Part shown: piece after piece, positions 4,206 to 44,983 of the stretch
How the letters are laid out: each line of letters begins with the position of its first letter
How positions within the stretch are numbered: the stretch's first letter is position 1
Assembly: GCA_013205085.1 (NCBI GenBank)
Contig: JABMLH010000006.1
Coordinates: 186,001-250,000 of the forward strand
Length of the DNA: 64,000 nt
Reading direction: 5' to 3'
Source of the DNA: Microbacteriaceae bacterium VKM Ac-2854
Lineage (GTDB): Bacteria > Actinomycetota > Actinomycetes > Actinomycetales > Microbacteriaceae
The notes under the pieces: generated by a model
What the model saw: only the letters and a program-made list of their open reading frames with translations
What the model was told of the DNA's origin: nothing
The model's database searches: none
Made by a program: the position numbers and the translations under genes

Positions 4206-5195
4206 ATGACGAACGACTGCGCTTTCAGCATCAGTACCACCCGCTTCGACGAGGAGTACTCGCCGTCGTCCCATTCTCGCAACACCACGAACTTCGCGAA
4301 CCTGGCGCGGGGCGAGAACCGCCAGCAGAACCTCCGCAACGCGTTGACGATGATCAACAACCGCTTCAACGACCTGGTGCACTGGGACAATCCCCGGCAG
4401 GATCGCTACGCCGTCGAGCTCGACATCGTCTCGGTCGACCTGCAGATCGATGCGGCCGGCGACGAGGCGGCGTTCCCGATCATCGAGATCCTGGATGTGC
4501 TGATCGTGGACACACAGACCGGTGCGCGTATCGATGGGATCGTGGGCAACAACTTCTCGTCCTACATCCGCGACTACGACTTCAGCGTGCTGCTGCCCGA
4601 ACACGCGGCGAAGGCCACCGGCCAGAGCACCCCGAGCGGCTTCGGTGAGTTGCACGGGCGCATCTTCGAGCGCTTCCTCGACTCCGACGCGTATCGGGAG
4701 CGGTTCTCGCAGCCTCCCGTCATCTGCATCAGCGTCTCGACCTCGCGCACCTATCGTCGGCTCGTGAACGAGCACCCGATCCTCGGTGTCGAGTACCAGC
4801 AGGACGACTACTCCCTGACCGACCAGTACTTCGCGAAGATGGGGCTGAAGGTTCGATACTTCATGCCCCGCGGTGCCGTTGCGCCCCTGGCCTTCTACCA
4901 CCGGGGCGATCTGCTCAACGACTACGCCCCCCTGGCGCTCGCCGGCACCATCAGCACGATGGAGACGTTCCAGAAGATCTACCGCCCGGAGATCTACAAC
5001 GCGAACACGGTGGCTGCGGATGTGTACCAGCCGAGCCTGAAGCACGGCGACTACTCGCAGACGCAGGTCTCCTACGACCGCGTCGAGCGCGATCAGCTGG
5101 CCCGCACCCAGGGCGCGTTCACCGCGAAGACCCTGATGGAGCCGTACGGCGCCGTGCTCGAGCACTGGGCGGCCCGAAGCCCTGTGAGCGCCTGA
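4206..5195 (+). CDS. mesX: DUF1852 protein, MesX component of oxygen-dependent methionine synthase
   Basis: 329 residues matching the DUF1852 family along its length, with the family-typical N-terminal stretches STRFDEEY and TTNFANLARGENRQ and the central LVHWDNPRQDRYAVEL. Genetic work on aerobic bacteria showed that the core methionine synthase MesD needs a DUF1852 partner and oxygen but not methylfolate or cobalamin; the methyl source is unknown. Start taken at ATG 4206, the position matching family members, although the upstream Shine-Dalgarno is weak. It is followed after 76 bp by mesD and the two are probably cotranscribed. Confidence 0.88.
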   Translation: MTNDCAFSISTTRFDEEYSPSSHSRNTTNFANLARGENRQQNLRNALTMINNRFNDLVHWDNPRQDRYAVELDIVSVDLQIDAAGDEAAFPIIEILDVLIVDTQTGARIDGIVGNNFSSYIRDYDFSVLLPEHAAKATGQSTPSGFGELHGRIFERFLDSDAYRERFSQPPVICISVSTSRTYRRLVNEHPILGVEYQQDDYSLTDQYFAKMGLKVRYFMPRGAVAPLAFYHRGDLLNDYAPLALAGTISTMETFQKIYRPEIYNANTVAADVYQPSLKHGDYSQTQVSYDRVERDQLARTQGAFTAKTLMEPYGAVLEHWAARSPVSA

Positions 5196-5256
5196 CACGC
5201 TGACTGCCTGACACGCCGACCGTACGACACGCTGACCGCACGACACGCGCACGACC
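5193..5256. repeat. 16-bp x4 tandem array beginning at the mesX stop
   Basis: Four contiguous degenerate 16-bp units related to TGACACGCTGACTGCC. The TGA that opens unit 1 is the mesX stop codon. The array fills most of the 76-bp gap to mesD and ends 15 bases before its start. Confidence 0.9.
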
Positions 5257-5271
5257 CGCGAGGAATCTCTG

Positions 5272-6297
5272 ATGAACACACTCCTGCCCACCTCGATCGT
5301 CGGCAGCCTGCCCAAGCCCTCCTGGCTCTCGGAGCCGGAGAAACTCTGGTCGCCCTGGAAGCTCGAGGGTGACGAACTGCGCGAGGGAAAACTCGACGCG
5401 CAGGCCCTGGCCGCCGACGAGCAGACCCACGCGGGCCTCGACATCGTCAGCGACGGCGAACAGACCCGCCAGCACTTCGTCACCACGTTCATCGAGGGCC
5501 TCAGCGGGGTCGACTTCGAACGACGCGAGACGGTGCGCATCCGTAACCGCTACGACGCGAGCGTGCCGACGGTGGTCGGTGCGGTGAGCCGGGAGAAGTC
5601 CGTCTTCGCGGACGACGCGAGGAGCCTGCGCGCTCAGACCACCCAGCCGATCAAGTGGGCGCTGCCCGGCCCGATGACGATGATCGACACGCTGTACGAC
5701 GACCACTACAAGAGCCGCGAGAAGCTGGCGTGGGAGTTCGCGACGATCCTGAACCAGGAGGCTCGGGATCTGGAGGCGGCGGGCGTCGACATCATCCAGT
5801 TCGACGAGCCCGCGTTCAACGTGTTCTTCGACGAGGTGAACGACTGGGGCGTCGCCGCGCTGGAGCGTGCGACGGAGGGGCTGCGATGCGAGACCGCGGT
5901 GCACATCTGCTACGGCTACGGCATCAAGGCGAACAACGATTGGAAGGCGACGCTCGGCTCGGAGTGGCGCCAGTACGAGGAGTCGTTCCCCCTGCTGCAG
6001 CAGTCGACGCTCGACATCGTCTCGCTGGAGCGCCACAACTCGCACGTGCCGGTCGAGTTGATCGAGCTGCTGCGCGGCAAGAAGGTGATGGTCGGGGCGA
6101 TCGACGTCGCCAGCAACAGCATCGAGACGCCGGAGGAGGTCGCCGCCACCCTCCGCAGCACGCTGCCCTTCGTCGACGCCGACAAGCTCTACCCGAGCAG
6201 CAACTGCGGCATGGCGCCCCTGCCGCGCCGCGTGGCGCGCGACAAGATGGTCGCGCTCGCCCAGGGTGCACACATCCTGCGCGCAGAACTCTCCTAG
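5272..6297 (+). CDS. mesD: core methionine synthase MesD (MetE C-terminal-like)
   Basis: 341 residues, about the length of only the catalytic half of MetE; the N-terminal folate-binding domain is absent. Zinc ligands can be placed as His211 and Cys213 (VHICYGYG), Glu253 (SLERHNS) and Cys312 (SNCGMAPL), the His-Cys-Glu-Cys set of MetE. The N-terminal TSIVGSLPKPSW is the homocysteine-side motif of the family. Adjacent mesX identifies it as the MesD family of folate-independent synthases, which transfers a methyl group to homocysteine in an oxygen-dependent manner. Shine-Dalgarno GAGGAA precedes ATG 5272. Confidence 0.88.
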   Translation: MNTLLPTSIVGSLPKPSWLSEPEKLWSPWKLEGDELREGKLDAQALAADEQTHAGLDIVSDGEQTRQHFVTTFIEGLSGVDFERRETVRIRNRYDASVPTVVGAVSREKSVFADDARSLRAQTTQPIKWALPGPMTMIDTLYDDHYKSREKLAWEFATILNQEARDLEAAGVDIIQFDEPAFNVFFDEVNDWGVAALERATEGLRCETAVHICYGYGIKANNDWKATLGSEWRQYEESFPLLQQSTLDIVSLERHNSHVPVELIELLRGKKVMVGAIDVASNSIETPEEVAATLRSTLPFVDADKLYPSSNCGMAPLPRRVARDKMVALAQGAHILRAELS

Positions 6298-6435
6298 CTC
6301 GTGCGGGGCCGGGCGTCAGGCTCGAGTTCGCGCTCGGCCTCGGCCTCGGCCTCGGGCTCGGGCGGAGACGGTGCCGAACACCGATCGCCGGGTCCGGCCG
6401 AACTCCGCAGCGCCCCGACCCGGCAGGATGGGCGG

Positions 6436-6879
6436 ATGGAACCCATGCTCGAAGAGACCGTCGCCGCCGATCCCGAGGTGCTCGCGCTCGCAGCCGAGCA
6501 GGAGGCCGAGGTGATGGCCCGCTACGGCGAGGACGACGCCGGCCCAGGGCCCTCGCCGGCCAGCCCCGCCGTGCTGATCCGGATCGACGGACGAGCGGTC
6601 GGCTGCGTCGCGGTCGAGCCGCACGGCGAGGGGCCGGGCGAGATCAAGCGGATGTACGTGCATCCGGAGGCCCGCGGCCGCGGACTCTCGCGGCTGCTGC
6701 TGGAGCGGGCGGAACAGATCGCGGTCCGCGAAGGCATCCGCACGCTGCGCCTCGAGACCGGCACCGAGCAGCCCGAGGCGATCGCGCTGTACCGACGTGC
6801 GGGCTACGGGCCGATCCCGTGCTACGGCTACTGGAAGGACGACCCCAGCACGCGATGCTTCGAGAAGGTGCTCGTGTGA
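6436..6879 (+). CDS. GNAT-family N-acetyltransferase
   Basis: 147 residues. The acetyl-CoA pyrophosphate loop is seen as IKRMYVHPEARGRGLSRLLL (V-x-P-x-x-R-G-x-G), and the C-terminal LYRRAGYGPIPCYGYWKDD is typical of the small PhnO/YjaB-like GNATs. Start ATG 6436 was preferred because upstream codons are low-complexity Ala/Ser/Gly. Acceptor unknown. It converges with arfB across a short hairpin. Confidence 0.85.
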   Translation: MEPMLEETVAADPEVLALAAEQEAEVMARYGEDDAGPGPSPASPAVLIRIDGRAVGCVAVEPHGEGPGEIKRMYVHPEARGRGLSRLLLERAEQIAVREGIRTLRLETGTEQPEAIALYRRAGYGPIPCYGYWKDDPSTRCFEKVLV

Positions 6880-6925
6880 AATGTCGGATGCGAGGCGGTC
6901 CCCGCCCGGGTCGGACGGCGCGACA

Positions 6926-6959
6926 GCGCTGAGCAACACAGCACTCAGCACCTCAGCGC
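6926..6959. terminator. possible bidirectional terminator hairpin
   Basis: GCGCTGAG (6926-6933) pairs with CTCAGCGC (6952-6959) over an 18-base loop, between the convergent GNAT and arfB genes. There is no U-tract, as is common in actinobacteria. Confidence 0.4.
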
Positions 6960-7017
6960 AATGAACGACTGCGCCCCGAACGACCGCGCCACCAACGACC
7001 GCCACCCGGCGCCGCAC

Positions 7018-7440
7018 CTAGTCGGCCGTCGGCCGCCGGCGCTGCTGCTTCGTGTCGGATCGGCGCTGCTTCGCCGCGAGATGCCGCCGTGCCGAGCCCC
7101 GAGTGGGGCGGGTGGCGCGCCGGATGGCGGCGGGCGGCGCCAGCGCGGCGGCCACGAGGGCGCGGAGATGCTCGAGCGCGATCTCGCGGTTGCGCAGCTG
7201 CGAGCGCTGCTGCGACACGGTCACCGTGATCGCCCCCGCGACCGTGTGCCCGGCGAGACGCTGCAGGATGCGCAGCCGCTGCTCATCGCTGAGCGCCGCC
7301 GATCGCGCCGCGTCCCAGGTGAGCTGAACCCGGCTGTCGGAGGTGTTGACGTGCTGCCCACCGGGCCCGGACGAGCGGGAGAACTTCCACTGCAGTTCGG
7401 ACGCCGGGATGGTGAGCTCGTCCGTCACCTCGAGGTCCAT
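7018..7440 (-). CDS. arfB: ArfB peptidyl-tRNA hydrolase, ribosome rescue factor
   Basis: 140 residues. The release-factor catalytic loop GPGGQHVNTSDSRVQL carries the GGQ motif that hydrolyses peptidyl-tRNA, and the tail (AAKQRRSDTKQQRRRP) is the basic extension that enters the empty mRNA channel of stalled ribosomes. Length agrees with ArfB rather than RF1/RF2. It starts 26 bp after the hydroquinone reductase gene on the same strand, so the two are likely cotranscribed. Confidence 0.92.
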   Translation of the reverse strand: MDLEVTDELTIPASELQWKFSRSSGPGGQHVNTSDSRVQLTWDAARSAALSDEQRLRILQRLAGHTVAGAITVTVSQQRSQLRNREIALEHLRALVAAALAPPAAIRRATRPTRGSARRHLAAKQRRSDTKQQRRRPTAD

Positions 7441-7466
7441 GCCGCAAGCCTGCCACGCTGCGGCGA

Positions 7467-8453
7467 TCAGCCGAGCTTCTCCCGCCCGTGCGTGGTGCGC
7501 CAGGACGCCGTCTCGGGGCCCTTCGGCACGATTCCGGTCGGGTTGATGTCCTGATGGACGACGTAGTAGTGCGTCTTGATCTGCTCGAAGTCGATGGTCT
7601 CGCCGAAGCCGGGAGTCTGGAAGAGGTCGCGGGCGTAGGCCCAGAGGGCCGGCATCTCGGTCAGCTTGTTGCGATTGCATTTGAAGTGGCCGTGATAGAC
7701 GGCGTCGAATCGGGCCAAGGTGGTGAACAACCGCACGTCGGCCTCCGTGATGGCATCGCCCATCAGGTAGCGGCGATCGGTCAGCCGCTCCTCGAGCCAG
7801 TCCATCGCCGTCCAGAGCCGGTCGTACGCGTCGTTGTACGCCTCCTGCGAACCCGCGAAACCGCAGCGGTACACGCCGTTGTTCACCTCGGTGAAGACGC
7901 GCTTCATCACGATCTCCATCTCGTCGCGGACGTCGTCCGGCCAGAGATCGGGAGCGTCCGGACGGTGGTGATCGCGCCACTCGAAGAAGAAGTCGTGCGT
8001 GATCGCGGGGAAGTCGTTCGTCACGACGGCCTTCGTCGGCACATCAACGATCGCCGGAACCGTGATGCCACGCGGGTACTCCGGATCGCGGGCGAAGAAC
8101 GCCTGCTGCAGCCGCTCGTAGCCGAGGACGGGATCGACGCCGCCCGGGTCGAGGTCGAAGGTCCAGCTGCGTCGATCGTGGGTCGGACCGGCCAGCCCCA
8201 TCGAGATCACGCCCTCCAGACCGAGCAGGCCGCGCACGATGATCGCCCGGTTCGCCCACGGGCAGGCGCGCGCGGCGATCAAGCGGTAACGGCCGGGCTG
8301 CACCGGCCACGTCGGCACATCGAACTCCGCGACGCGCGGGTCGGCGGAGCGCCCGGGGACCGCGGTGATGCGGTCGGGGATGTACTGCATGTCCCGCTCG
8401 AAGGGCTTGCCCTTGTCGGTGTACGTGGTTGCCTCGTCGCTCACCCTCCCCAC
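7467..8453 (-). CDS. glutathionyl-hydroquinone reductase-type GST (Xi class)
   Basis: 328 residues. The catalytic cysteine motif ACPWANRA (CPW-x-x-R) followed by GLLGLEGVISMGLAGP, and the C-terminal LTxxDVRLFTTLxRFDxVYHxHFKCN block (about residues 238-262), are diagnostic for the Xi class that reductively removes thiols from quinone conjugates. Actinobacteria often lack glutathione, so mycothiol conjugates could be the substrate (inference). Start is a GTG at 8453; another GTG lies three codons in. Confidence 0.88.
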   Translation of the reverse strand: MGRVSDEATTYTDKGKPFERDMQYIPDRITAVPGRSADPRVAEFDVPTWPVQPGRYRLIAARACPWANRAIIVRGLLGLEGVISMGLAGPTHDRRSWTFDLDPGGVDPVLGYERLQQAFFARDPEYPRGITVPAIVDVPTKAVVTNDFPAITHDFFFEWRDHHRPDAPDLWPDDVRDEMEIVMKRVFTEVNNGVYRCGFAGSQEAYNDAYDRLWTAMDWLEERLTDRRYLMGDAITEADVRLFTTLARFDAVYHGHFKCNRNKLTEMPALWAYARDLFQTPGFGETIDFEQIKTHYYVVHQDINPTGIVPKGPETASWRTTHGREKLG

Positions 8454-8560
8454 GTTACGGGTCTGCGGGCCGCGCCGCTGGAGGGGAAGCCGAGTCTGGC
8501 AATCGCATCGGCATCGCTTGGCAACCCCTATCCGCCTCGACGTGGAGGGCGTTGTCTCAG

Positions 8561-8610
8561 CACACGCGAAGACTCAACACACACGAAGACTCAACACACG
8601 AAGAACTGAG
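8561..8610. repeat. 17-bp x3 tandem array upstream of the Mn-catalase
   Basis: Units related to CACACACGAAGACTCAA at 8561-8577 and 8578-8594, then a partial unit to 8610. It lies 16 bp before the catalase start, in the leader region of the divergent intergenic space 8454-8625. Confidence 0.8.
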
Positions 8611-8625
8611 ACCGACGGAGGCTCC

Positions 8626-9598: not shown

Positions 9599-9735
9599 CC
9601 GGCACGACGCCGGCCGGGCCGGGCGAGCCGCAGTCCGTCGAGCCGAGCGACCCGAAGACCGTCGACCCCGAGGCCGTCGACCCCGAGACCGGCACCGAGC
9701 CCGACGGCTCGCCCGTCGAGAACCCCTCGGGCTGA
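9595..9735 (+). CDS. small acidic Pro/Asp-rich protein overlapping the catalase end
   Basis: A 46-residue frame starting at GTG 9595, overlapping the catalase TGA as GTGA, which suggests translational coupling. The sequence is low complexity with two copies of a VDPE-type motif (KTVDPEAVDPETGTEPDG). Many Mn-catalases carry a disordered C-terminal tail, so this could be a detached tail rather than a separate protein. No domain recognised. Confidence 0.4.
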   Translation: MTGTTPAGPGEPQSVEPSDPKTVDPEAVDPETGTEPDGSPVENPSG

Positions 9736-9790
9736 CGCGTCGCGTCCGACGTCTACCCCGACACTCCGCCCGCCCTTCGAAAGGAACCCG

Positions 9791-11222: not shown

Positions 11223-11294
11223 AACCGGGCGACGCCGAGATTCTGTGACCGCTCGACGCGCTGGTGCGGCGTTGACCGGTCTGAGGGCGTGCGT

Positions 11295-11354
11295 TGCTCG
11301 ATCAGGGGTTCCGGTGCTCGATCAGGGCGAGCGCTGCTCGATCAGGGCGAGCTG
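11295..11354. repeat. 20-bp x3 tandem array across a stop codon
   Basis: Three units related to TGCTCGATCAGGGCGAGCGC (11295-11314, 11315-11334, 11335-11354). On the minus strand the inner two units encode the last residues of the VOC gene, LALIEQRSP, and the stop (TCA 11322-11324 on the plus strand). Confidence 0.85.
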
Positions 11355-11765
11355 CGTGCCGTCCGGGTCGATCAGGTAGCCGGCGCGGAGCCCGAAATCC
11401 TGCAGGCGAACGGGATGCAGGCGCGGCATCCCGACCGTCGCCCGTGGCACCCCCGAGCGATCGATCGCGTCGAACAGCTCGTCCACGTCGGCCACGCGGA
11501 TGCTGCACATGAAGCTGCTCGTGAACGGATCGAGATCCTCAGCCGGGAAGAACTCCAGCTGCACGCTCGCTCGGGCGAGGATCAGCCAGCCCTCGTCGCG
11601 GAAGATCCGCTCGAACCCGAAGCCGCCGTAGAACCGCTCGGTCCTGTCGAAGTCGCGGGAGGGCAGGTTCGGCACGGCCAGGTCGGGGATCGCCGGGTTC
11701 GGGAGCGCCGGGTTCGCATTCTCCGGGCGCGCATCCGCCGGGTCGGGTGAGGATGACGTGGCCAT
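11322..11765 (-). CDS. bleomycin-resistance-type VOC protein
   Basis: 147 residues of the glyoxalase/bleomycin resistance fold. The family opening AVPNLPSRDFDRTERFYGGF is followed by LEFFPAEDLDPF and a C-terminal YLIDPDGTQLALIEQ with the conserved DPDG-x-x-(I/L). Such small dimeric proteins sequester glycopeptide drugs or have lost that role. The N-terminus carries a Pro/Asn-rich stretch (ENANPALPNPAIPDL). Start ATG 11765 chosen; an in-frame ATG five codons upstream is possible. Confidence 0.78.
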   Translation of the reverse strand: MATSSSPDPADARPENANPALPNPAIPDLAVPNLPSRDFDRTERFYGGFGFERIFRDEGWLILARASVQLEFFPAEDLDPFTSSFMCSIRVADVDELFDAIDRSGVPRATVGMPRLHPVRLQDFGLRAGYLIDPDGTQLALIEQRSP

Positions 11766-17346: not shown

Positions 17347-17397
17347 CCTGCAGCGAGATCAGGCCTGCAGCGGGATCAATTCTGCAACGGGATCCAC
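17347..17397. repeat. 17-bp x3 tandem array across a stop codon
   Basis: Units of CCTGCAGCGGGATCAAT type at 17347-17363, 17364-17380 and 17381-17397. Read on the minus strand, the first unit encodes the end of the hydrolase (IPLQN) and the junction supplies its stop at 17376-17378; the other two lie beyond it. Confidence 0.85.
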
Positions 17398-18232
17398 TCC
17401 GCCAGAGCGGCGACGATCTCACCGGGCCGATCCTCGGGCAAGAAGTGCGTGCCCGGCCCCACCGACACGATGGTCATCGCGCGTCCGTTCGTGCGGCACC
17501 ATTCCACCTCCGCCACACCGACGACCGCGCCCGGCTCCCCGTGCAGGAGGAGCGTGGGCACACCGTCTCCGGCCAGTACGGCCTGGTTCTGCGTAACAAC
17601 ATCCACCACGTCAGCGGGCTCGGCGGCGATCGGGATCTCCCGCACCCACTGCAGGATCGGCAGCCGCGATGCGGGGTCCGGGAAGGGCGCCCGATAGCGG
17701 TCGTGTTCCGCGCGCGTGAGTTCGCGCAGCATCCCGAGGGCAGCACCGTCTCGATGAAGATGTTCCGCTCCAGCACCAGCTCCTCGCCGCTGCCGACGGC
17801 GCGCAGACGGGAGAACAGCGCCGCTGCATCCTCCCCCAGATCGGCCCAGCTCTCGATCGGGTGCAGGTGCGACTCCAGCACCGCGACGCGGCGGCACCGA
17901 TCCGGATGCCGTCGCGCCAACGCGAGCGCGAGCACGCCACCCCAGTCGTGGCCGACGACCGTGAGTCGGGTGAGGTCGAGCGCCTCGACGAAGCCCGACA
18001 CGTATTCGAGGTGATCGGTGAATCGGTAGCCGCGCGCGGACTCGCCCGACTCGCCCATCCCGATCAGGTCGAGGGCGAGACAGCGGTGGCCGAGCAGGGC
18101 GAGCGGCGGCAGCACGTTCCGCCAGAGGAACGAGGAAGTGGGATTGCCGTGCAGGAAGAGAACGGCGTCGCCGCGTCCTTCCTCGACGTACGCCAGGCGG
18201 CTGTCGAGCACGCGCGCCGTTTTCGTCGCCAT
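17376..18232 (-). pseudogene. haloalkane dehalogenase-like alpha/beta hydrolase with a frameshift
   Basis: The N-terminal part (from ATG 18232) reads MATKTARVLDSRLAYVEEG, has the oxyanion motif HGNPTSSFLWRN and the nucleophile elbow GHDWGG (Asp), as in haloalkane dehalogenases. After ERNIFIETVLPSG the frame is lost. The other frame resumes exactly there with GMLRELTRAEHDRYRAPFPD and runs to the stop at 17376, including the histidine region GPGTHFLPEDRP. One missing G in the run at 17733-17735 (CCC on the plus strand) explains it. Either a true mutation or a one-base sequence error. Confidence 0.78.
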
Positions 18233-20791: not shown

Positions 20792-20835
20792 GGACGGCGG
20801 CTCGGCGGCCGGGTTCCGCCCGCGAGGCTCGCCCG

Positions 20836-20871
20836 CTCAGTCCACCCAGCCCACTCAGTCCACCCTGGTCG
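20836..20871. repeat. 18-bp x2 duplication across a stop codon
   Basis: CTCAGTCCACCC recurs with an 18-bp period (20836 and 20854). The copy at 20854 contains the stop of the minus-strand DUF1579-like gene (TCA 20855-20857); the other duplicates it just beyond. Confidence 0.8.
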
Positions 20872-21298
20872 CGACGCGATCGCAGAGGGTGATCCACTCG
20901 CCGTCGGGCGTGAACTCCCAGTGGAGCGTCTGCGTACGGCCGTCATCACTGAACACGATCGTGGCGCGTTCGGTGGGGCCGATGAAGCTCCAGGTGTCGC
21001 CGCTGTGCCGCACGAGGTATTCGCGGGCGAAGCCGTGGTTCTCGATGCTCCACGAGAAGTAGGTCTCGCGTTCCGCATCCCAACCGAGGAAGCTCATCGT
21101 GTCGAACGGGCCGTTCGCGCGCTCGTCCTGAACGACGAAGAAGCCGCCGGAATGCCAGCGTGCGCTGTGCACGCTGCGCCACGGCGTACCGGCGAGATCG
21201 GCGCCGTAGGCCGTCCCTTCCGCGCTCCAGTCTCCGAGGAAGACCGCGAGCGCCTGATGCTCATCCGTCGTGTGCTCATCCGCCTTGTGCTCATCCAT
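20855..21298 (-). CDS. DUF1579-like protein
   Basis: 147 residues from ATG 21298 behind GGAGGAGG. After an Asp-Glu-His repeat leader (DEHKADEHTTDEH) the chain follows the DUF1579-type barrel: LGDWSAEGTAYG, FFVVQDERANGPFDTMSFLG, FSWSIENHGFAREYLV and a final TLHWEFTPDGEWITLCD. These lipocalin-like small proteins have no assigned reaction. It lies divergent from the alpha/beta hydrolase gene at 21403. Confidence 0.68.
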   Translation of the reverse strand: MDEHKADEHTTDEHQALAVFLGDWSAEGTAYGADLAGTPWRSVHSARWHSGGFFVVQDERANGPFDTMSFLGWDAERETYFSWSIENHGFAREYLVRHSGDTWSFIGPTERATIVFSDDGRTQTLHWEFTPDGEWITLCDRVATRVD

Positions 21299-24608: not shown

Positions 24609-25286
24609 ATGCCGAGTCCCGACGCACCGGTGGACGGCGTCGTCGCCCGGGTGGTCGGCTGGCTCCGCGCCGGGTATCCGATGGGAGTGCCCGAGCAGGA
24701 CTACGTTCCGCTGCTGGGGATCCTGCAGCGCAGCCTGACCACGGAGGAGCTGGAGCTGGTCGTCGACCGGCTCGTCGAGGATGCCGAGCAGGCGGATGCG
24801 GCGGGCGGCGAGCTGCGGCACGCGCAGTTGCGCGATCGGGTCGAGCAGCTGCTGCTCGGCCCCGCGCTGCCGGAGGACCTGCTCCGGGTGTCGGTGCGCC
24901 TGGCCGGCGCGGGCTGGCCGCTCGGAGCGCCGGAGGGGGCGCTGGAGGGGGCACTGGACGGTGGATGGGAGGGTGGGCCGGATGGGTCGCTGACGGTCGA
25001 ACCGCAGCGCTCCGGCCTCGTGGCGCGCGTCGTCTCGTGGCTGCGCGCCGGATATCCGGCCGGGCTGCCGGAGCGGGACTTCGTGCCGCTCGTCGCCCTG
25101 CTGCGGCGACGATTGACCGACGAGGAGATCGTCGCCGTCAGCAGCCACCTCCCGGCGCCGGCGAGCCGCGTCGACGTGGGCGCAGCGATCGCGCAGATCA
25201 CGTCGGAGTTGCCCTCGGAGGACGACATCGAGCGCGTGCGCCGGTACCTCGCCGAGAACGGCAGACCGGGCGACTTCCCGGTCTGA
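24609..25286 (+). CDS. tandem DUF3349 protein
   Basis: 225 residues containing two DUF3349 domains, at about residues 8-60 (VVARVVGWLRAGYPMGVPEQ, then DYVPLLGILQRSLTTEEL) and 138-190 (LVARVVSWLRAGYPAGLPER, then DFVPLVALLRRRLTDEEI), joined by a low-complexity Gly/Glu/Ala linker. The mycobacterial relative has a single domain. It starts two bases after the previous stop, so it is in the pit operon. A 15-bp repeat array runs across its stop codon. Confidence 0.85.
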   Translation: MPSPDAPVDGVVARVVGWLRAGYPMGVPEQDYVPLLGILQRSLTTEELELVVDRLVEDAEQADAAGGELRHAQLRDRVEQLLLGPALPEDLLRVSVRLAGAGWPLGAPEGALEGALDGGWEGGPDGSLTVEPQRSGLVARVVSWLRAGYPAGLPERDFVPLVALLRRRLTDEEIVAVSSHLPAPASRVDVGAAIAQITSELPSEDDIERVRRYLAENGRPGDFPV

Positions 25287-25370
25287 GCGCCGTCAGTGGG
25301 AGCGCCGACTGCGTGAGCGCCGACTGTGTGAGCGCCGTCTGCGTGGGCGCCGACTACGTGAGCGCCGACT
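25281..25370. repeat. 15-bp x6 tandem array across a stop codon
   Basis: Six contiguous units related to GCGTGAGCGCCGACT fill 25281-25370. Unit 1 contains the last Val codon and the TGA (25284-25286) of the DUF3349 gene. The array ends 18 bp before the stop of the convergent response regulator. Confidence 0.92.
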
Positions 25371-25388
25371 GATTTCCGGGCGGCGGCG

Positions 25389-29811: not shown

Positions 29812-30201
29812 CTAGGACCACGGTGACGTCGGATCTGTGACCGGACCCTCCGGATTCCACCCGAGCAGTCGTGCCCGGTCCGTCACGATCCACAGCTCGG
29901 CGACCCGTGCGCCCCGGGTGGCGAGGACGATGATCACCTCGACGCGGCCCGCGCGGCGCAGCACCAGCGCCGGCCGTCCGTTCACACTGTGCTGGCGCGG
30001 CTCGCGGCCGGTCGCGGCCTCGAGGATGCTCGCCGCCGCGTCCTTCGCCGGAACCGTGCGGGCGCTCGCCGCGGTGGTCACTCGCACGCGGGGACGCAGC
30101 AGCGGCGCGAGTTCGGTGTGATCCTCATGCGCGCACGCGGCCACGATCGCCTCGGCCAGCGCGAGGTCGAGGCGGGCGCGGCGCGCGCGCACCCAGCCCA
30201 C
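29812..30201 (-). CDS. stand-alone SnoaL-like protein resembling the sigma factor C-terminal domain
   Basis: 129 residues from GTG 30201, five bases after the sigma factor stop. The C-terminal half NGRPALVLRRAGRVEVIIVL aligns with NGRPAVAIERDGVATTVVTV in the ECF41 sigma factor, and TDRARLLGW aligns with its NPAKLTRV. The N-terminal helices (AIVAACAHEDHTELAPLLRP) match the first helix and strand of a SnoaL/NTF2 fold. It looks like the regulatory domain of the sigma factor encoded a second time as a free protein. Confidence 0.65.
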   Translation of the reverse strand: MGWVRARRARLDLALAEAIVAACAHEDHTELAPLLRPRVRVTTAASARTVPAKDAAASILEAATGREPRQHSVNGRPALVLRRAGRVEVIIVLATRGARVAELWIVTDRARLLGWNPEGPVTDPTSPWS

Positions 30202-30206
30202 CCGGC

Positions 30207-31160
30207 TCAGCCCACCCGCGTGAGCTTCGCCGGATTCATCAGCCAGAGCAGCCGGTCGATGCCGTCCGCCGACGCGACCACGGTGACCACCGTCGTCGCG
30301 ACACCGTCGCGCTCGATCGCGACAGCAGGCCGACCGTTCGTCTCGATCCAGCGCAGCTGCGCTCCGCTCCAGAAGTGCGAGGAGAAGGCGGCGACGAATG
30401 TCGCCACGCGCGCACGGCCGAGCACGTTCTTGCGCGCAGCCAGCTTCGCGCCGCCTCCGTCGGACGTGCTGATGATGTCGGCCGCGAAGAGCGCCTCCAG
30501 GCCGCGGATGTCACCGGACTGCGCCGCGGCGAGGAACTCCGCCAGCAGGCGACGATGTTCCACCGGCGCAGCCTGGCGACGGCGACCGGCCGCCAAGTGC
30601 CGCCGCGCCCGGCTGACGAGTTGCCGCACCGCCGGCTCACGCTGCTGCACGACTTCGGCGATCATCGGGTAGGGGTAGTCGAACGCCTCGCGCAGCACGT
30701 AAGCGGCGCGTTCCGCGGGCGACAGACTCTCCAGGAGCAACAGGACCGCGAACTCCAGCGCCTCGCCTCGTTCAGCGCCGAGCAGCGGGTCGGCGCTGGT
30801 GTCGATCGGATCCGGCAGCCACGGGCCGACGTAGCTCTCGTGCCGGACCCGGGCCGAAGCCGACAGATTCATCGCGAGGCGGGTCACGACCGTCGCGAGG
30901 AACGCCGCAGGGTTCTCGACGACCGAACGATCGGTTCCCTGCCAGCGCAGCCACGAGTCCTGCACGATGTCTTCCGCCTCAGCGACGCTGCCGAGCATCC
31001 GATACGCGATGCCGAACAGGCGCGGACGAACGGCCGCGAAGACCACGGCCGCCTCGTCGAGGTCGGTGAGGTCGGTGAGGTCGGGGGCGTCGGGAGTGGG
31101 CGTGGCGACGTCGGGGATGGGCGTGGCGTCGGGAACGTCAGCACCGGCGGCGGTGGTCAT
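30207..31160 (-). CDS. ECF41-type RNA polymerase sigma factor with SnoaL C-terminal domain
   Basis: 317 residues. Sigma region 2 (RPRLFGIAYRMLGSVAEAED, IVQDSWLRW) at about 40-105, region 4 (LSPAERAAYVLREAFDYPYP, then VRQLVSRARRHL) at about 150-210, then a SnoaL-like domain. ECF41 marks are all present: YVGPWLPDP in the linker (WLPEP), STSDGGGAK (DGGGK) and NPAKL (NPDKL). In this group the C-terminal domain replaces an anti-sigma factor. ATG 31160 was chosen over an upstream start with an Arg-rich lead. It heads a four-gene operon. Confidence 0.92.
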   Translation of the reverse strand: MTTAAGADVPDATPIPDVATPTPDAPDLTDLTDLDEAAVVFAAVRPRLFGIAYRMLGSVAEAEDIVQDSWLRWQGTDRSVVENPAAFLATVVTRLAMNLSASARVRHESYVGPWLPDPIDTSADPLLGAERGEALEFAVLLLLESLSPAERAAYVLREAFDYPYPMIAEVVQQREPAVRQLVSRARRHLAAGRRRQAAPVEHRRLLAEFLAAAQSGDIRGLEALFAADIISTSDGGGAKLAARKNVLGRARVATFVAAFSSHFWSGAQLRWIETNGRPAVAIERDGVATTVVTVVASADGIDRLLWLMNPAKLTRVG

Positions 31161-36374: not shown

Positions 36375-37088
36375 ATGAGCGGGCGGACCCGGGAGCAGCT
36401 GCTGGTGGAGACGTTCGTCGCCGTCGCGGACACGCTCGTGGAGGACTACGACGTGGTCACGCTGCTGCACGATCTGGTCGATCGCTGCGCGTCGATCTTC
36501 GAGGCCACCGACGTCGGCATCATCCTCGCCGCGCCGCAGCGCGAACTCGTCGTCGTCGCGTCGACGAGCGAGCGGACGCGGCTGATCGAACTGCTGCAGC
36601 TCTCGGGCGCGGGCGGCCCGTGTCTCGAGGCGTTCCAGACCGGGCGGATGGTGACGGCGAGCGATGCGGCGAGCATCGCGCAACGCTGGCCTGCGTTCGC
36701 AGCCCACGTCGACGGGTCCGGATATCAGTCGATGCAGGCCGTGCCGATGCGGCTGCGCGAGCAGACCATCGGCTCGCTCAACCTGTTCAATGATCGCCCC
36801 GGTCACCTCGGCGCCGACGACGCCGCCGCCGTGCAGGCGCTCGCCGATGTCGCCACCATCGGCATCCTGCACGAGCGCCTGCTGCGGGATGCGGTGGCGA
36901 CCCGGGCCCAGCTGCAGCATGCGCTGGTGTCGCGCGTGGTGATCGAGCAGGCCAAGGGCGTGGTCGCCCACCGGCGTCGGATCAGCCCGGACGAGGCGTT
37001 CCAGCTGCTGCGGCGCCGGGCACGATCGCACCAGGCCCGGCTCACCGACGTCGCGCAGGCCGTGATCGACGGCCTGATCACCGTGTGA
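36375..37088 (+). CDS. GAF-ANTAR transcription antitermination regulator
   Basis: 237 residues. GAF sensor domain at about residues 20-165 (VDRCASIFEATDVGIILAAP, GGPCLEAFQTGRMVTASDAA, VPMRLREQTIGSLNLF) and C-terminal ANTAR domain (LQHALVSRVVIEQAKGVVAH, DEAFQLLRRRARSHQ). ANTAR proteins bind paired RNA hairpins in leaders and prevent termination. The AxxxxxGxxM-type ANTAR core is conserved as EQAKGVV. A 17-bp array crosses its stop. Confidence 0.9.
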   Translation: MSGRTREQLLVETFVAVADTLVEDYDVVTLLHDLVDRCASIFEATDVGIILAAPQRELVVVASTSERTRLIELLQLSGAGGPCLEAFQTGRMVTASDAASIAQRWPAFAAHVDGSGYQSMQAVPMRLREQTIGSLNLFNDRPGHLGADDAAAVQALADVATIGILHERLLRDAVATRAQLQHALVSRVVIEQAKGVVAHRRRISPDEAFQLLRRRARSHQARLTDVAQAVIDGLITV

Positions 37089-37126
37089 CCGAGATCGCGG
37101 TGTGACCGAGGTCGCGGTGACGCGGG
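37076..37126. repeat. 17-bp x3 tandem array across a stop codon
   Basis: GATCACCGTGTGACCGA, GATCGCGGTGTGACCGA and a degenerate third copy. Unit 1 holds the last codons and TGA (37086-37088) of the GAF-ANTAR gene. Confidence 0.88.
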
Positions 37127-40117: not shown

Positions 40118-40158
40118 CCCCTCACGCTAGGGCAGCCACCGGCTCCGGCCGCCCGGGT

Positions 40159-40294
40159 TGACAGCGTTCAGGCCGACAGCGCTCGGCTTGACAGCGCTCG
40201 GCTTCACAGCGCTGGGCTTCACAGCGCTGGGCTTCACAGCGCTCGGCTTGACAGCGCTCGTCTTCGTCGGCGGGCTGTCCGTCGGCGGGCTGTC
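40159..40294. repeat. 15-bp x7 plus 15-bp x2 arrays in a divergent promoter region
   Basis: Seven units related to TGACAGCGCTCGGCT occupy 40159-40263, followed by two exact copies of CGTCGGCGGGCTGTC at 40265-40294. Together they make up most of the 218-bp gap between the acyl-CoA dehydrogenase-like and glycosyltransferase genes, leaving little other promoter space. Confidence 0.92.
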
Positions 40295-40335
40295 AAGCAC
40301 CCGCCGCGGATCGAGTCGAACCGTAGGCTCGGACG

Positions 40336-41100
40336 ATGCCAGCGGACGTGCGCCCCAGCGAGATCCCGATCCGGGACGTCTCCGTCGTCATCCCCGCCCG
40401 CGACGAAGGGGACACCCTGCACGCGTGCCTGACCGCGGTCGTCGCGGCGATCGACGACGTCCGCCGCGCGGATCCGACACTCGCGGTGCGGGTGGTCCTC
40501 GTGCTGGACCGGTGCACCGACGACAGCGCCCGCGTCGCCGCCCGCTTCGCGCCGGTGATCGCGATCGAGGCGGATGCAGGCTCCGTCGGCGCCGCCCGCG
40601 CTCTCGGCATCGCGGCCGCGGAACAGGCCGCACCCGACGCCGCCGGTCACTGGATCGCCAACACCGACGCGGACTCGATCGTGCCGCCGCACTGGTTGAG
40701 CACGCAGCTGCGGGAGGCCGCCGAGGGCTGCGACGTCTGGGTCGGCACCGTGACTCCGGTGCTCGACGAGCTCGACCCCGAGCGTCGAGCCGCGTGGATC
40801 CGCACGCATCCGCCCGGCGCCTCGGTCGGGCACGTGCACGGCGCGAACCTCGGCTTCCGCGCCACGAGCTACCGCGACGCCGGCGGATTCGAGCACCTTC
40901 CGGAGCACGAGGACGTCCGCCTGGTGGAACGCGCGGCCCGAGCGGGCGCCCGCATCGCCGCATCCGATGCCGCCGCGGTGCTCACCTCGGCTCGACTGCG
41001 CGGCCGGACCCCGGGCGGATACGCCGGCTATCTCGCCGATCTCACGGTCGATCTCACCGCCGATCTCACCGCCGATCTCACCGCCGTCAGCGCCTCGTAG
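40336..41100 (+). CDS. family 2 glycosyltransferase of the PIG-L cluster
   Basis: 254 residues. GT-A fold start VSVVIPARDEGDTLHACLTA, nucleotide-metal motif ANTDADSIVP (DxD as DAD), and the acceptor side EHEDVRLVERA (ED motif). No membrane segment. The last 20 residues are a 12-bp repeat (DLTV/DLTA). It faces away from the dehydrogenase gene and probably shares the control region with it. Sugar donor unknown. Confidence 0.87.
   Translation: MPADVRPSEIPIRDVSVVIPARDEGDTLHACLTAVVAAIDDVRRADPTLAVRVVLVLDRCTDDSARVAARFAPVIAIEADAGSVGAARALGIAAAEQAAPDAAGHWIANTDADSIVPPHWLSTQLREAAEGCDVWVGTVTPVLDELDPERRAAWIRTHPPGASVGHVHGANLGFRATSYRDAGGFEHLPEHEDVRLVERAARAGARIAASDAAAVLTSARLRGRTPGGYAGYLADLTVDLTADLTADLTAVSAS
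41036..41092. repeat. 12-bp x4 in-frame array at the 3' end of the glycosyltransferase
   Basis: GATCTCACCGCC-type units encode DLTV-DLTA-DLTA-DLTA immediately before the C-terminal VSAS and the stop. Confidence 0.88.
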
Positions 41101-41119
41101 CGGCCGGCTGGATGCGGGT

Positions 41120-41161
41120 CAGACCGATCCCGTGTGTGATCAGACCGCTCCCGTGTGTGAA
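41120..41161. repeat. 21-bp x2 tandem duplication
   Basis: Two 21-bp copies (41120-41140 and 41141-41161) opening with CAGACCG and sharing CCCGTGTGTGA, in the 192-bp gap before the dehydrogenase gene. The rest of that gap shows nothing notable. Confidence 0.85.
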
Positions 41162-41292
41162 ATGTCGGTCGGACCCGCCGCATCCTGCGCACCCCCGCAC
41201 CATCTGGCAAGCCCCTCACCCGGGCCGGGCGTTCAGGCGATGGTGGGAGCGGACGCCGCCACCGGGCGGCGCTCCGAACGAGAGGACAGCCC

Positions 41293-42474
41293 ATGAAGGC
41301 CGTTACCTGGCAGGGCAAGCGCACGATCCGGGTCGACGAGGTCGAGGATCCGCGGATCCAGGAGCCCACCGACGCGATCATCCGGATCACCTCGACCGCG
41401 ATCTGCGGATCGGACCTGCACCTCTACGAGCTGTTCGGCCCATTCCTGGACGCGGGCGACATCCTCGGGCACGAGTCGATGGGCGTCGTCGAGGCGATCG
41501 GGGCCGAGGTCACCGAGGTCGCCGTCGGCGACCGCGTCGTCGTGCCGTTCACCATCGCCTGCGGGCACTGCTTCATGTGCCAGCGCGGCCTGCAATCGCA
41601 GTGCGAGACCACCCAGGTGCGCGAGTACAACAGCGGCGCCACGCTCTACGGCTACACCAAGCTGTACGGGCAGGTTCCCGGCGGCCAGGCGGAGCGACTG
41701 CGCATCCACCTCGCCGACGCCAACCTGATCCGCGTCGGCAGCGAGCTGCCCGACGAGCGCTACCTGTTCCTCAGCGACATCCTGCCCACGGCCTGGCAGG
41801 GCGTGGAGTACGCGGAGATCCCCGACGGCGGATCCGTCGTCGTCTTCGGGCTCGGACCGGTCGGTCAGTTCGCCGCCCGCATCGCGAAGCATCGCGGCTT
41901 CGAGGTCGTCGCGATCGACCCGGTGCCGGAACGGCGCGCGATGGCGCAGCGGCACGGCATCGACGCCGTCGACGCGACCGACGACGTGGTCGAGCGGCTG
42001 CGCGAACGCTTCGACGGCCGCGGGCCGGACGCCGTCATCGACGCGGTCGGGATGGAGGCGCACGGCTCACCCGTCGCCGCAGTCGCGCAGGCGGTCACCG
42101 GCATCCTGCCCAAACCGCTGGCGCGCGCCATGATGCAGACCGCCGGCGTCGACCGGCTCACCGTGCTGCACAACTCCCTCGATCTCGTGCGGCGCGGCGG
42201 CACCGTCTCGCTCAGCGGCGTCTACGGCGGCGAGGCCGACCCGATGCCCATGATGTCGATGTTCGACAAGCAGGTCACGCTGCGGATGGGGCAGTGCAAC
42301 GTGCGCCGCTGGATCGACGCGATCCTGCCGCTCGTCGAGGATCCGGCCGATCCGCTGGGCACCGAAGACCTCGTGACGCACCACGTCGGAATCGACGAGG
42401 CGCCCGCGATGTACGAGATCTTCCAGAAGAAGCAGGACGGCTGCATCAAGGTGGTGCTGCACCCGGGCAGCTAG
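41293..42474 (+). CDS. zinc-dependent alcohol dehydrogenase (FdhA-like MDR)
   Basis: 393 residues. Catalytic zinc site: Cys and Asp in ICGSDLHLYE, then GHESMGVVEAIG; structural zinc loop CGHCFMCQRGLQSQC; cofactor motif VFGLGPVGQFAARI. The length and the LFLSDILPTAWQGVEYAE segment fit the glutathione-independent formaldehyde dehydrogenase-like subgroup of medium-chain dehydrogenases. In Gram-positive bacteria this group is found with many alcohols and aldehydes, so the substrate is open. A 14-15 bp array runs across the stop. Confidence 0.9.
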   Translation: MKAVTWQGKRTIRVDEVEDPRIQEPTDAIIRITSTAICGSDLHLYELFGPFLDAGDILGHESMGVVEAIGAEVTEVAVGDRVVVPFTIACGHCFMCQRGLQSQCETTQVREYNSGATLYGYTKLYGQVPGGQAERLRIHLADANLIRVGSELPDERYLFLSDILPTAWQGVEYAEIPDGGSVVVFGLGPVGQFAARIAKHRGFEVVAIDPVPERRAMAQRHGIDAVDATDDVVERLRERFDGRGPDAVIDAVGMEAHGSPVAAVAQAVTGILPKPLARAMMQTAGVDRLTVLHNSLDLVRRGGTVSLSGVYGGEADPMPMMSMFDKQVTLRMGQCNVRRWIDAILPLVEDPADPLGTEDLVTHHVGIDEAPAMYEIFQKKQDGCIKVVLHPGS

Positions 42475-42519
42475 ATCCCGGCAGCGAGGGTCCGGCAGCG
42501 AGATCCGGCGCAGCGGATC
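42463..42519. repeat. 14-15 bp x4 tandem array across a stop codon
   Basis: CCGGGCAGCTAGATC, CCGGCAGCGAGGGT, CCGGCAGCGAGATC and a fourth degenerate unit. The TAG in unit 1 (42472-42474) is the dehydrogenase stop. Confidence 0.85.
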
Positions 42520-42567
42520 GGGTGTCAAGCCCTCACCCTCGGTGGCCCGGTCGCCTTGACTCGCAGC

Positions 42568-43578
42568 ATGCGAATCGTTGTGATCGGCGCCACCGGCAAC
42601 CTGGGCACCGCCCTCCTGACCCGTCTCGCGGGCGAGGGGCACGAGGTCGTCGGGGTCGCCCGGCGCGTCCCCGACACGCGCGCGGCTCCCTACGGATCCG
42701 CGAGCTGGCGGTCCGTCGACATCGCGGCGACCGATGCGCCGGCCCGCCTCGCCCCGGTGTTCGAGGGGGCGGATGCGGTGGTGCACCTGGCCTGGGCGCT
42801 GCAGCCGAACCACAACGAGCACACCCTGCGCCGCGTGAACGTCACCGGCACGGCCGCCGTGCTCAGCGCCGTCGCCGCCGCCGGCGTCCCGCACCTGGTC
42901 GTCGCCTCCTCCGTCGGCGCCTACTCGATCGGGCCCAAGAACGCGCGGGTCGACGAGAGCTGGCCCACCGGCGGCATCGCCACCTCGCACTACAGCCGGC
43001 ACAAGGCGATGAATGAGCGTGCGCTGGACCGCTTCGAGGCGGCGCATCCGGGCGTGACCGTGGCGCGGATCCGTCCGGGTCTGGTGTTCCAGGAGAATGC
43101 GGCGACCGAGATCGCCGGGCTGTTCCTCGGGCGGCACATCCCGACCCGGTGGCTCGGCTCCGTGCGCATCCCCGTCGTGCCGCTCTCGACCAGGATCGTG
43201 TCGCAGGCCGTGCATGCCCGCGACGTCGCCGAGGCGTTCACCCTCGCGCTCGAGCAGCGGGCCTCCGGCGCGTTCAACATCGCCGCGGAGCCGGTGCTCG
43301 GGCCGGTCGAGGTCGCCGCAGCGGTCGGCGGCCGCCCCGTCCCGTTCCGCTTCGACGTGCTGCGCAGCGTGGTCTGGCTGAGCTGGAAGCTGCGCCTGCA
43401 GGCGACCGATCCGGGCTGGCTCGACATCGCCGCCGGCGTGCCGATCATGTCCACCGAACGTGCGCGGCGCGAACTCGGCTGGGCACCGACCGTGTCCGCC
43501 ACGGATGCCCTGGCCGAGATCGTGCGCGGACTCGCGCGGCGCAGCCGGGTGCCGGAGTCCGACCCGCTGCACGGCTGA
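42568..43578 (+). CDS. NAD-dependent epimerase/dehydratase (extended SDR)
   Basis: 336 residues. Rossmann motif VIGATGNLGTALL, substrate-side VVHLAWALQPN, the SDR serine segment VVASSVGAYSIGP, and the catalytic pair in HYSRHKAMNE, where Tyr-x-x-x-Lys reads YSRHK. The second half contains RIVSQAVHARDVAEAF. Extended SDR proteins of this kind act on nucleotide sugars or small ketones; nothing nearby fixes the substrate. ATG 42568 preferred over TTG 42556. Confidence 0.86.
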   Translation: MRIVVIGATGNLGTALLTRLAGEGHEVVGVARRVPDTRAAPYGSASWRSVDIAATDAPARLAPVFEGADAVVHLAWALQPNHNEHTLRRVNVTGTAAVLSAVAAAGVPHLVVASSVGAYSIGPKNARVDESWPTGGIATSHYSRHKAMNERALDRFEAAHPGVTVARIRPGLVFQENAATEIAGLFLGRHIPTRWLGSVRIPVVPLSTRIVSQAVHARDVAEAFTLALEQRASGAFNIAAEPVLGPVEVAAAVGGRPVPFRFDVLRSVVWLSWKLRLQATDPGWLDIAAGVPIMSTERARRELGWAPTVSATDALAEIVRGLARRSRVPESDPLHG

Positions 43579-43583
43579 ACGCG

Positions 43584-43635
43584 CCGGTAGCTCAGGCCAG
43601 CAGCTCGAGCCGGTAGCGCAGTGCAGCAGCTCGGG
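43584..43635. repeat. 26-bp x2 degenerate duplication
   Basis: CCGGTAGCTCAGGCCAGCAG and its diverged copy recur with a 26-bp period shortly after the epimerase stop. The rest of the 179-bp gap is unremarkable. Confidence 0.7.
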
Positions 43636-43757
43636 CAGGCAGCGCGGGCCCCGCATGCTCCCGGGCTCGCGCGCCGAGCGCAAGTCCTGTCCTCCCGGCT
43701 GACGCGCCCCTACCGTCGAGAACGCGTCGACTGCGGCGCAGCTCAGGAGGCTGTCAG

Positions 43758-44009
43758 ATGAAGGTATCGGAAGTCCGTTGGAACGATGAGGCGCGCGCGA
43801 AGATCGTGGCCGACGCCGATGAAGTGCTCCGCGCGGCGGTCGCCGACCTCGCCGGCACCATGGCGGGTCACGAACCCGATGACGTCTACGAGGCGTTGAA
43901 CGCGCGGATCAAGAACCGCTTCATCGACTACCAGCCCGGTCCGGATGTGCGCCGCTACGCCGACGCGATCGCGGCCGGCGAGGTCGAGCAGGAGCACGTC
44001 GCCTCCTGA
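43758..44009 (+). CDS. small conserved hypothetical protein, 83 aa
   Basis: MKVSEVRWNDEARAKIVADA at the N-terminus, then a helical middle (EVLRAAVADLAGTMAGHEPD) and an amphipathic C-terminus with RIKNRFIDYQPGPDVRRYAD. A good Shine-Dalgarno (CAGGAGG) precedes ATG 43758. No cysteines or membrane segments. I do not know the family; a small toxin-antitoxin type partner is not present. Confidence 0.65.
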   Translation: MKVSEVRWNDEARAKIVADADEVLRAAVADLAGTMAGHEPDDVYEALNARIKNRFIDYQPGPDVRRYADAIAAGEVEQEHVAS

Positions 44010-44106
44010 GCTTTCGCCGAACCCGGGCAGGATTCGCGTCGTCACCGCGTTGCTGCAGGGGTCGGCTCACGAGTCGACGCATCGATCGTCGCTCGAAAGG
44101 AACACC

Positions 44107-44925
44107 ATGAAGGTCTGGTTCATCACCGGTACGTCGCGAGGCTTCGGCCGGGAGTGGGCGATCGCGGCCCTGGAGCGGGGCGACAAGGTCGCCGCGACCG
44201 CGCGCAACACGGATTCACTCGCCGATCTCGTCGAGCGGTTCGGCGACGCGATCCTCCCCATCGCCCTCGACGTCAACGACCGCGAGGCCGACATCGCCGC
44301 GGTCCGCCGCGCGCACGAGACCTTCGGCCGACTCGACGTCGTCGTCAACAACGCCGGCTACGGCCACTTCGGTTTCATCGAGGAGATCACGGAGGACGAG
44401 GCGCGGGCGCAGCTCGAGACCAACCTCTTCGGTGCGCTCTGGATCACCCAGGCCGCACTGCCGTACCTGCGTGCACAGGGCAGCGGTCACATCATCCAGG
44501 TCTCCTCGATCGGCGGCATCTCCGCCTTCCCGCTCGTGGGCATCTATCACGCGTCGAAGTGGGCGCTGGAGGGCTTCAGCCAGTCCCTCGCGCAGGAGGT
44601 CGCCGGTTTCGGCATCAACGTCACCCTCATCGAGCCCGGCGGCTTCAGCACCGACTGGAGCGGCGACTCAGCCAAGACGTCCGCCCCGTTGGACGCCTAC
44701 GCCGCGCTGCACGAAGCCGTCGCCGAACAGCGCAAGGCGCGCGTCGGCACCCCGGGCGACCCGAAGGCCTCGGCCGCCGCCATCCTGCGCGTGGTCGACG
44801 CGGAGCAGCCGCCGCTGCGCGTGTTCTTCGGCACCGCTCCGCTCGGTATCGCCAAGGCCGACTACGCCGCGCGCATCGCGACGTGGGAGGAATGGGACGA
44901 GGTGTCGCGGGTGGCGCAGGGCTGA
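44107..44925 (+). CDS. short-chain dehydrogenase/reductase
   Basis: 272 residues of the classical SDR family. Cofactor motif TGTSRGFGREW (TGxxxGxG), NNAGYG, catalytic Ser in IIQVSSIGGISAF and Tyr-x-x-x-Lys in YHASKWA. The arginine after TGTS favours NADP(H). The chain ends without extension. The substrate cannot be told. A 13-bp array begins at the stop codon. Confidence 0.92.
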   Translation: MKVWFITGTSRGFGREWAIAALERGDKVAATARNTDSLADLVERFGDAILPIALDVNDREADIAAVRRAHETFGRLDVVVNNAGYGHFGFIEEITEDEARAQLETNLFGALWITQAALPYLRAQGSGHIIQVSSIGGISAFPLVGIYHASKWALEGFSQSLAQEVAGFGINVTLIEPGGFSTDWSGDSAKTSAPLDAYAALHEAVAEQRKARVGTPGDPKASAAAILRVVDAEQPPLRVFFGTAPLGIAKADYAARIATWEEWDEVSRVAQG

Positions 44926-44983
44926 GCCACTGGGTGAGGTCACGGGGCTGAATCACTGGGCTGAACCCTCGGGCTGGGGCACG
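44919..44983. repeat. 13-bp x5 tandem array across a stop codon
   Basis: Five units of GGGCTGAGCCACT type at 44919, 44932, 44945, 44958 and 44971. The TGA of unit 1 (44923-44925) is the SDR stop; units 3 and 4 repeat CTGA. Confidence 0.92.

Follow-up and report, generated by a model that had tools for sequence, protein, structure and literature searches.

Short tandem arrays across stop codons in a Microbacteriaceae genome look like young local duplications rather than back-up stops

We analyzed a 64-kb stretch of the genome of Microbacteriaceae bacterium VKM Ac-2854 (G000, 4.75 Mb on 18 contigs), which covers positions 186001-250000 of contig C15 and is referred to below as the window. Several genes in the window end in short tandem arrays that lie across the stop codon. 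These stop-spanning arrays seem to be local duplications of recent origin and mostly without harm, not a system of back-up stops, and the best reading of their distribution is lineage-specific birth of minisatellites that would be tolerated at stops and lost at starts and, when out of frame, inside genes. It is very probable that the arrays are young minisatellites generated by local head-to-tail duplication, that tolerance sets their placement and that the window is special through its regional array density. The rest of the genome was sampled as 44 other 20-kb stretches (880 kb), and the relative G004, with a mean identity of 86% to G000 where both samples overlap, served as the main comparison. 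Arrays were detected with Tandem Repeats Finder (TRF) at a score of at least 50, and units shorter than 8 bases were dropped before counting.

A sequence-only reading of the window had described arrays on the stops of nine genes. Eight of the nine sites are indeed tandem arrays that touch the stop; the remaining one, at 30194, consists of two imperfect 14-base copies (30194-30221, minus strand, extents by eye) beside the stop of gene 30207-31160 (minus strand), and no TRF array was found there even at a score of 30. On the plus strand, a 16-base array of 3.4 TRF copies (5194-5248) is located at the stop (5193-5195) of a MesX-family gene (4206-5195), whose closest named match is from Microbacteriaceae bacterium VKM Ac-2855 (88% protein identity). 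The TRF array starts one base past the first base of this stop, and the unit laid out by eye includes the stop. Other plus-strand arrays are a 15-base array of 5.9 copies (site 25281; 25284-25371) that starts at the stop (25284-25286) of gene 24630-25286, a 17-base array of 2.2 copies (site 37076; 37083-37119) across the stop of an ANTAR/GAF gene (36375-37088), a 14-base array of 4.1 copies (42463-42519) across the TAG stop, itself not repeated, of an alcohol dehydrogenase-like gene (41293-42474), and a 13-base array of 3.6 copies (44919-44965) across the stop of a short-chain dehydrogenase gene (44107-44925). On the minus strand, a 20-base array of 3.5 copies (site 11295; 11284-11352), the first copy of which is coding, spans the stop (11322-11324) of gene 11322-11765, a 17-base array of 2.8 copies (17347-17394) spans that of gene 17376-17732, and an 18-base array of 1.9 copies (site 20836; 20831-20865) that of gene 20855-21298. 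At the score used, the called stop was inside the array at seven of the nine sites (11284, 17347, 20831, 25284, 37083, 42463 and 44919). By eye, the nine units all differ from one another, as had been reported; the accompanying statement that unit lengths are never multiples of three was wrong for 18 (20836) and 15 (25281).

With the exception of 30194, these sites are head-to-tail minisatellite loci above chance. In gaps of at least 60 bases (shorter gaps were left out of the shuffle and fold tests), 21 arrays were detected in the window compared to 0.3 in dinucleotide shuffles, 66 compared to 1.0 in the 44 other stretches, and 52 compared to 1.4 in G004. No weight was given to the unit-length peak at 14-19 bases: with two copies, an array reaches a TRF score of 50 only if its unit has approximately 13 bases, and the lower edge of the peak probably marks this detection limit.

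Comparison with related genomes points to a local origin of the arrays. At the 5193 site, the corresponding locus of a relative (L065), which shares 86% DNA identity with the window over 3.2 kb, contains the 16-base unit, with the stop, a single time and then the next gene, compared to the 3.4 TRF copies of the window. Among the homologs of seven site genes, an array was present at 2 of 132 resolved stops, and the units of these two arrays were 12 and 22 bases long compared to 16 and 17 bases at the window sites. For this count, which used the best rows of longer searches and includes some paralogs, 136 loci were submitted, 134 matched and 132 were kept (match ending no more than 25 residues from the query end); all drops were at 11295 (7 submitted, 5 matched and 3 kept). 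An array was found at 0 of 5 homologs for the 20831 site, 0 of 7 for 25284, 1 of 7 for 37083 (the 22-base unit), 0 of 23 for 42463 and 0 of 7 for 44919; the 11284 array was absent from the G004 homolog (L216), and the gene at 17347 had no match in 14 genus relatives. The single unit in L065 and the rarity and different unit lengths of arrays at homologous stops bear out the earlier proposal that gene ends were duplicated locally and that no mobile family was involved. A mobile or dispersed family landing at gene ends would resemble the mycobacterial interspersed units (MIRUs), which are described, in the part of the source used here, as landing at gene borders, at start codons (PMC12548453). 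Dispersed families that contain tandem copies are present in the genome, but the nine units are mutually different and the 5193 unit is the relative's own single-copy sequence, and we consider such a family scarcely credible as the source. In a search that did not take every unit through the whole genome, the 11284 unit had a 10-mer in common with one distant array, in L050 (among the pairs listed, 10 of 32).

The arrays also seem to be young. We compared the gaps after 26 genes common to G000 and G004, paired by the upstream gene only without a check on synteny of the next gene (39 genes were matched and 13 dropped, with both gaps shorter than 40 bases or at a stretch end). An array was present in G000 only in 4 gaps, in G004 only in 8, in both in none and in neither in 14. 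Because the two species differ in 12 of the 26 gaps and have no array in common, gain or loss of arrays seems to take place on the species time scale. A whole-window alignment to G004 (C20:1-100000) was dropped, as 14 of 67 window genes had a tblastn match at 1e-10 and there was no single syntenic block.

One site may illustrate how an array comes to lie at a gene end. The G004 homolog of the 11295 gene ends in ...CTGATCGAGCGGCTCGCCCGATGA, and the window gene ends in ...CTGATCGAGCAGCGCTCGCCCTGA, followed by more copies. Laid out by eye, the 20-base step looks as if it shifted the frame and turned a TGA of the unit into the stop, which would have been created rather than copied. If this is correct, an array is able to make its own gene end, which is part of why stop-carrying arrays seem to start in the last codons. 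Moreover, since a gene ends at the first in-frame stop, any array with a stop in its unit tends to begin within approximately one unit of the gene end.

Outside the window, stops are not special, and arrays avoid starts. When each array was slid within its own gap (same-gap null), stops were spanned 15 times versus 15.7 expected in the 44 other stretches and 8 times versus 12.5 in G004 (combined, 23 versus 28.2). Array coverage in the 44 stretches was 0.034 at the stop, 0.054-0.069 within 30 bases and approximately 0.11 at 60-150 bases downstream (gaps shorter than 40 bases were left out of the coverage profiles and the back-up-stop counts, and overlapping genes were dropped). A stop-proximal peak (0.25-0.29 within 30 bases after stops) was seen only in the window and was absent from the 44 other stretches and G004. 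Placement that had appeared too regular for a mobile repeat family is, outside the window, what the same-gap null predicts, with stops covered less than the DNA downstream of them. Starts were hit below expectation in all three samples (3 versus 9.2 in the 44 stretches, 1 versus 6.7 in G004 and 0 versus 3.4 in the window). Arrays covered 13 of 424 stops and 4 of 458 starts in the 44 stretches, and 8 of 290 stops and 1 of 320 starts in G004; pooled without the window, 21 of 714 stops versus 5 of 778 starts were covered (p = 0.001). Across eight other bacterial groups (78 of 80 loci, L123 and L127 being left ungrouped), stops were spanned 8 times versus 6.8 expected and starts once versus 2.1. 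In G000, the unit length was a multiple of three in 121 of 135 coding arrays versus 34 of 100 arrays touching non-coding DNA, and in G004 in 47 of 57 versus 25 of 58 (no unit-length limit was applied to this count).

A second null, in which intergenic arrays were thrown into any gap, gave a less even result. At score 50, 17 stops were spanned versus 11.1 expected in the 44 stretches (p = 0.051), and results at scores of 40 (21 versus 12.8, p = 0.012) and 60 (14 versus 9.7, p = 0.114) were similar; in G004, the count was 9 versus 9.2. This null compares all spanning arrays with simulated arrays centered in gaps only and leaves start-side DNA freely open. Because it counts gene-centered arrays on the observed side only and ignores start avoidance, it leans towards stops. 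In the 880 kb, arrays thus fall on stops no more often than by chance under the same-gap null, but not cleanly so under the any-gap null.

The concentration of arrays on stops in the window coincides with a general excess. We counted 43 arrays in the 64 kb of the window (6.72 per 10 kb) compared to 197 in 880 kb elsewhere (2.24 per 10 kb). The window value corresponds to 13.4 per 20 kb, versus 9 in the densest of the 44 other stretches. The stretches flanking the window on the left and right (L146 and L147) have 2.5 and 3.0 arrays per 10 kb. Density was raised both in coding sequence (3.65 versus 1.52 per 10 kb elsewhere) and in gaps (16.9 versus 6.6 per 10 kb in the gaps of the shuffle test). 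In consecutive 8-kb segments the window holds 6, 7, 7, 5, 6, 7, 4 and 1 arrays, the excess spanning the first 56 kb and falling in the last 8 kb. A regional cause rather than a stop-bound one is needed for this density. The window looks special because arrays are approximately three times as dense in this region as in the other parts of the genome that were sampled, and more stops are hit as a consequence (8 of 47 versus 13 of 424, p = 0.0004).

Several observations weigh against placement by tolerance alone or limit what can be concluded from these counts. In the window itself, 8 stops were spanned versus 4.5 expected under the same-gap null, a residual excess with p = 0.056, and versus 2.8 under the any-gap null (p = 0.008); for all G000 sequence, window included, the any-gap count was 25 versus 14.0 (p = 0.002). 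The Arthrobacter group, with very few arrays, had 2 stop-spanning arrays versus 0.2 expected. Array rates in the other members of the genus are uneven, from 0 to 11.2 per 10 kb of gap in 80 kb each. Genes were called by a codon-usage script without curated annotation, and we infer the duplication step from sequence comparison.

A replication or transcription event at gene ends, such as polymerase collision or breakage at an R-loop or terminator, would favor duplication at stops. It fits the window profile, which peaks just past stops, and the higher array density of convergent than of divergent gaps in the 44 other stretches (11.0 versus 4.4 per 10 kb). However, the stop-side peak is absent from those stretches and from G004, tandem gaps exceed convergent ones in G004 (10.9 versus 8.0 per 10 kb), and the contrast between convergent and divergent gaps is equally explained by avoidance of the promoter side. 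Array-bearing ends are also mostly without hairpins: the fold z at 26 such ends of G000 was 0.15, with 8% below -2, versus -1.15 and 26% at 200 other ends. An event of this kind appears improbable, and the slippage where replication meets termination that had been suggested for the window does not agree with the low coverage at stops relative to 60-150 bases downstream or with the same-gap counts. A terminator or attenuator function of the arrays was rejected, as stable hairpins are mostly absent after array-bearing stops.

Selection for back-up stops, the other cause that had been suggested, would mean that the copied stops catch readthrough or frameshifted ribosomes. Seven of the nine sites do hold further stops in the array: three out of frame at 5193, one out of frame at each of 11295, 17347 and 37076, one in frame at 20836, three in frame at 25281, and two in frame plus one out of frame at 44919. 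The claim that the stop is multiplied thus stands for these seven and fails for 30194 and 42463, where the non-coding portion of the array contains no additional stop. In addition, 8 of 26 array-bearing gene ends of G000 have an in-frame stop within 12 codons compared to 0.12 of all ends, and stops in frame +2 are more frequent at gene ends than on the reverse strand (0.19 versus 0.13). In contrast, in-frame second stops within 12 codons are less frequent at G000 gene ends than in the reverse-strand control from the same stretches (0.12 versus 0.16), as are those in frame +1 (0.11 versus 0.15). The corresponding G004 values (in-frame, +1 and +2) were 0.11, 0.16 and 0.16 versus 0.13, 0.11 and 0.18 on the reverse strand, and 0 of 9 G004 array ends had an in-frame stop. 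The arrays had no counterparts at homologous gene ends, arrays occur in gaps no less often at a distance from stops than near them, and duplication of any unit with a stop in it multiplies that stop incidentally. Selection for back-up stops is accordingly very unlikely.

The lineage is array-rich but not alone. Per 10 kb of gap, we counted 19.5 arrays in the window, 7.1 in the rest of the sampled G000 sequence and 8.5 in G004; rough values from 80 kb each were 11.2 in G006, 4.5 in G002, 4.1 in G005, 3.9 in G003 and 0 in G010. Rates in other bacteria were 2.3 in Microbacterium, 2.7 in other Microbacteriaceae, 0.4 in the Arthrobacter group, 1.3 in Rhodococcus/Gordonia/Dietzia, 0.9 in Xanthomonas, 0.6 in Betaproteobacteria, 1.1 in Enterobacterales and 1.4 in Acinetobacter. 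It is possible, if doubtful, that the lineage has an active process which makes de novo duplications of approximately 13-20 bases unusually often, the window being one of its regional hot spots. Sister species would then share almost no arrays, and stops would be the places where the product is most visible. Two candidate causes were rejected. Loss of NucS does not apply, as NucS_C was present in 15 of 15 genus genomes. According to the part of a study used here, NucS does not correct short indels (PMC8228993). Being present throughout the genus and blind to short indels, it neither explains nor prevents such duplications. A change in TopA was rejected because the GHIRDL and QETRRILDRL stretches, which we take to hold the E. 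coli mutator residues, were identical in G000 and 13 genus relatives (14 of 15 genomes; G009, with a split match, was left out).

We return to minisatellite birth followed by tolerance. As a proposed mechanism, whatever sequence is present would be duplicated locally, head to tail, and further copies and point changes would then be gained. Selection by place would follow and set where arrays persist. A duplication across a stop would leave the protein intact or alter only its last residues and would persist at about the rate of intergenic duplications in general, a duplication at a start or its upstream signals would be lost, and one inside a gene would survive chiefly when its unit length is divisible by three.

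Additional repeats were observed in the same genome. Across the stop (51242-51244) of gene 51242-52216 (minus strand) lies a 36/18-base array (51170-51251, minus strand) that the earlier reading did not include, and a 15-base array of 7.7 copies (40150-40264) occupies a divergent gap away from any stop. At 978-1506 of the window, a palindromic unit (GGTTGTCACTCCGT ... ACGGACTGACAACC) occurs four times in a 124-base repeat, and CCCGCATCCGCCG arrays lie between the copies. One arm of this unit occurs, with up to 3 mismatches, at 23 places in G000 (in clusters on C4, C14, C15 and C18, and singly on other contigs), at 2 in G004, at 1 in G002 and at none in the other 12 relatives. A dispersed intergenic element of approximately 100 bases, with inverted-repeat ends (CGGAAATGCAGGGT ... 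ACCCTGYATTTCCG), is nearly private to G000 and often has 2-4 tandem 19-base copies of its own 3' end. It is located in L033 (near 9825), L035 (near 7405), L036 (near 1060), L039 (near 11328), L041 (near 9182 and 10289), L044 (near 4867), L171 (near 15055), L182 (near 7205) and L183 (near 19619), and was not seen in the window. Its core had 27 matches in G000 but no more than 1 in any of the 14 genus relatives, in which a reversed control pattern had 0-2. Presumably, this element resembles the MITE or REPIN type. Some G000 arrays belong to this family with the 19-base unit, so not all arrays of this genome are independent.

A back-up stop system would have been new, and the evidence counts against one. 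A lineage rich in young minisatellites is a good place to study the birth of tandem repeats from single-copy DNA. The arrays also serve as a warning that repeats at gene ends may give the appearance of targeting where selection simply tolerates them.

Arrays over stop codons are already a known kind; the high turnover seen here is moderately interesting. In the parts of the papers used here, the closest parallels are as follows. In Yersinia pestis, 84.1% of variable-number tandem repeats (VNTRs) have units of 7-21 bases; among 88 VNTRs, 48 are intergenic, 24 lie inside genes in multiples of three, and the remaining 16 extend across a gene boundary, which is the stop in 10 cases and the start in 6 (PMC3689786). 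The window arrays are like these in having minisatellite units that overlap stop codons. They are unlike them in being GC-rich and imperfect, and copy number in Y. pestis varies among strains of one species, whereas our comparison is at the species level (PMC3689786). In E. coli topA mutants, de novo head-to-tail duplications of 2-19 bases occur with no need for an existing repeat (PMC6954433); the window arrays are similar short head-to-tail copies, but no such TopA change was seen here in the two stretches compared. The repeats of archaeal Borgs are independent and recently formed with nearly all units unique, and approximately half of the arrays are intergenic or have the first unit in or partly in a gene end (PMC9879509). 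Genic Borg units are divisible by three and intergenic ones mostly are not (14-38% divisible; PMC9879509). Borg repeats are perfect, A-rich and carried on linear extrachromosomal elements (PMC9879509), whereas large genome contigs carry the GC-rich, imperfect repeats described here. Like many Borg arrays, the stop-spanning arrays of the window begin at gene ends, and the units at the nine sites all differ.

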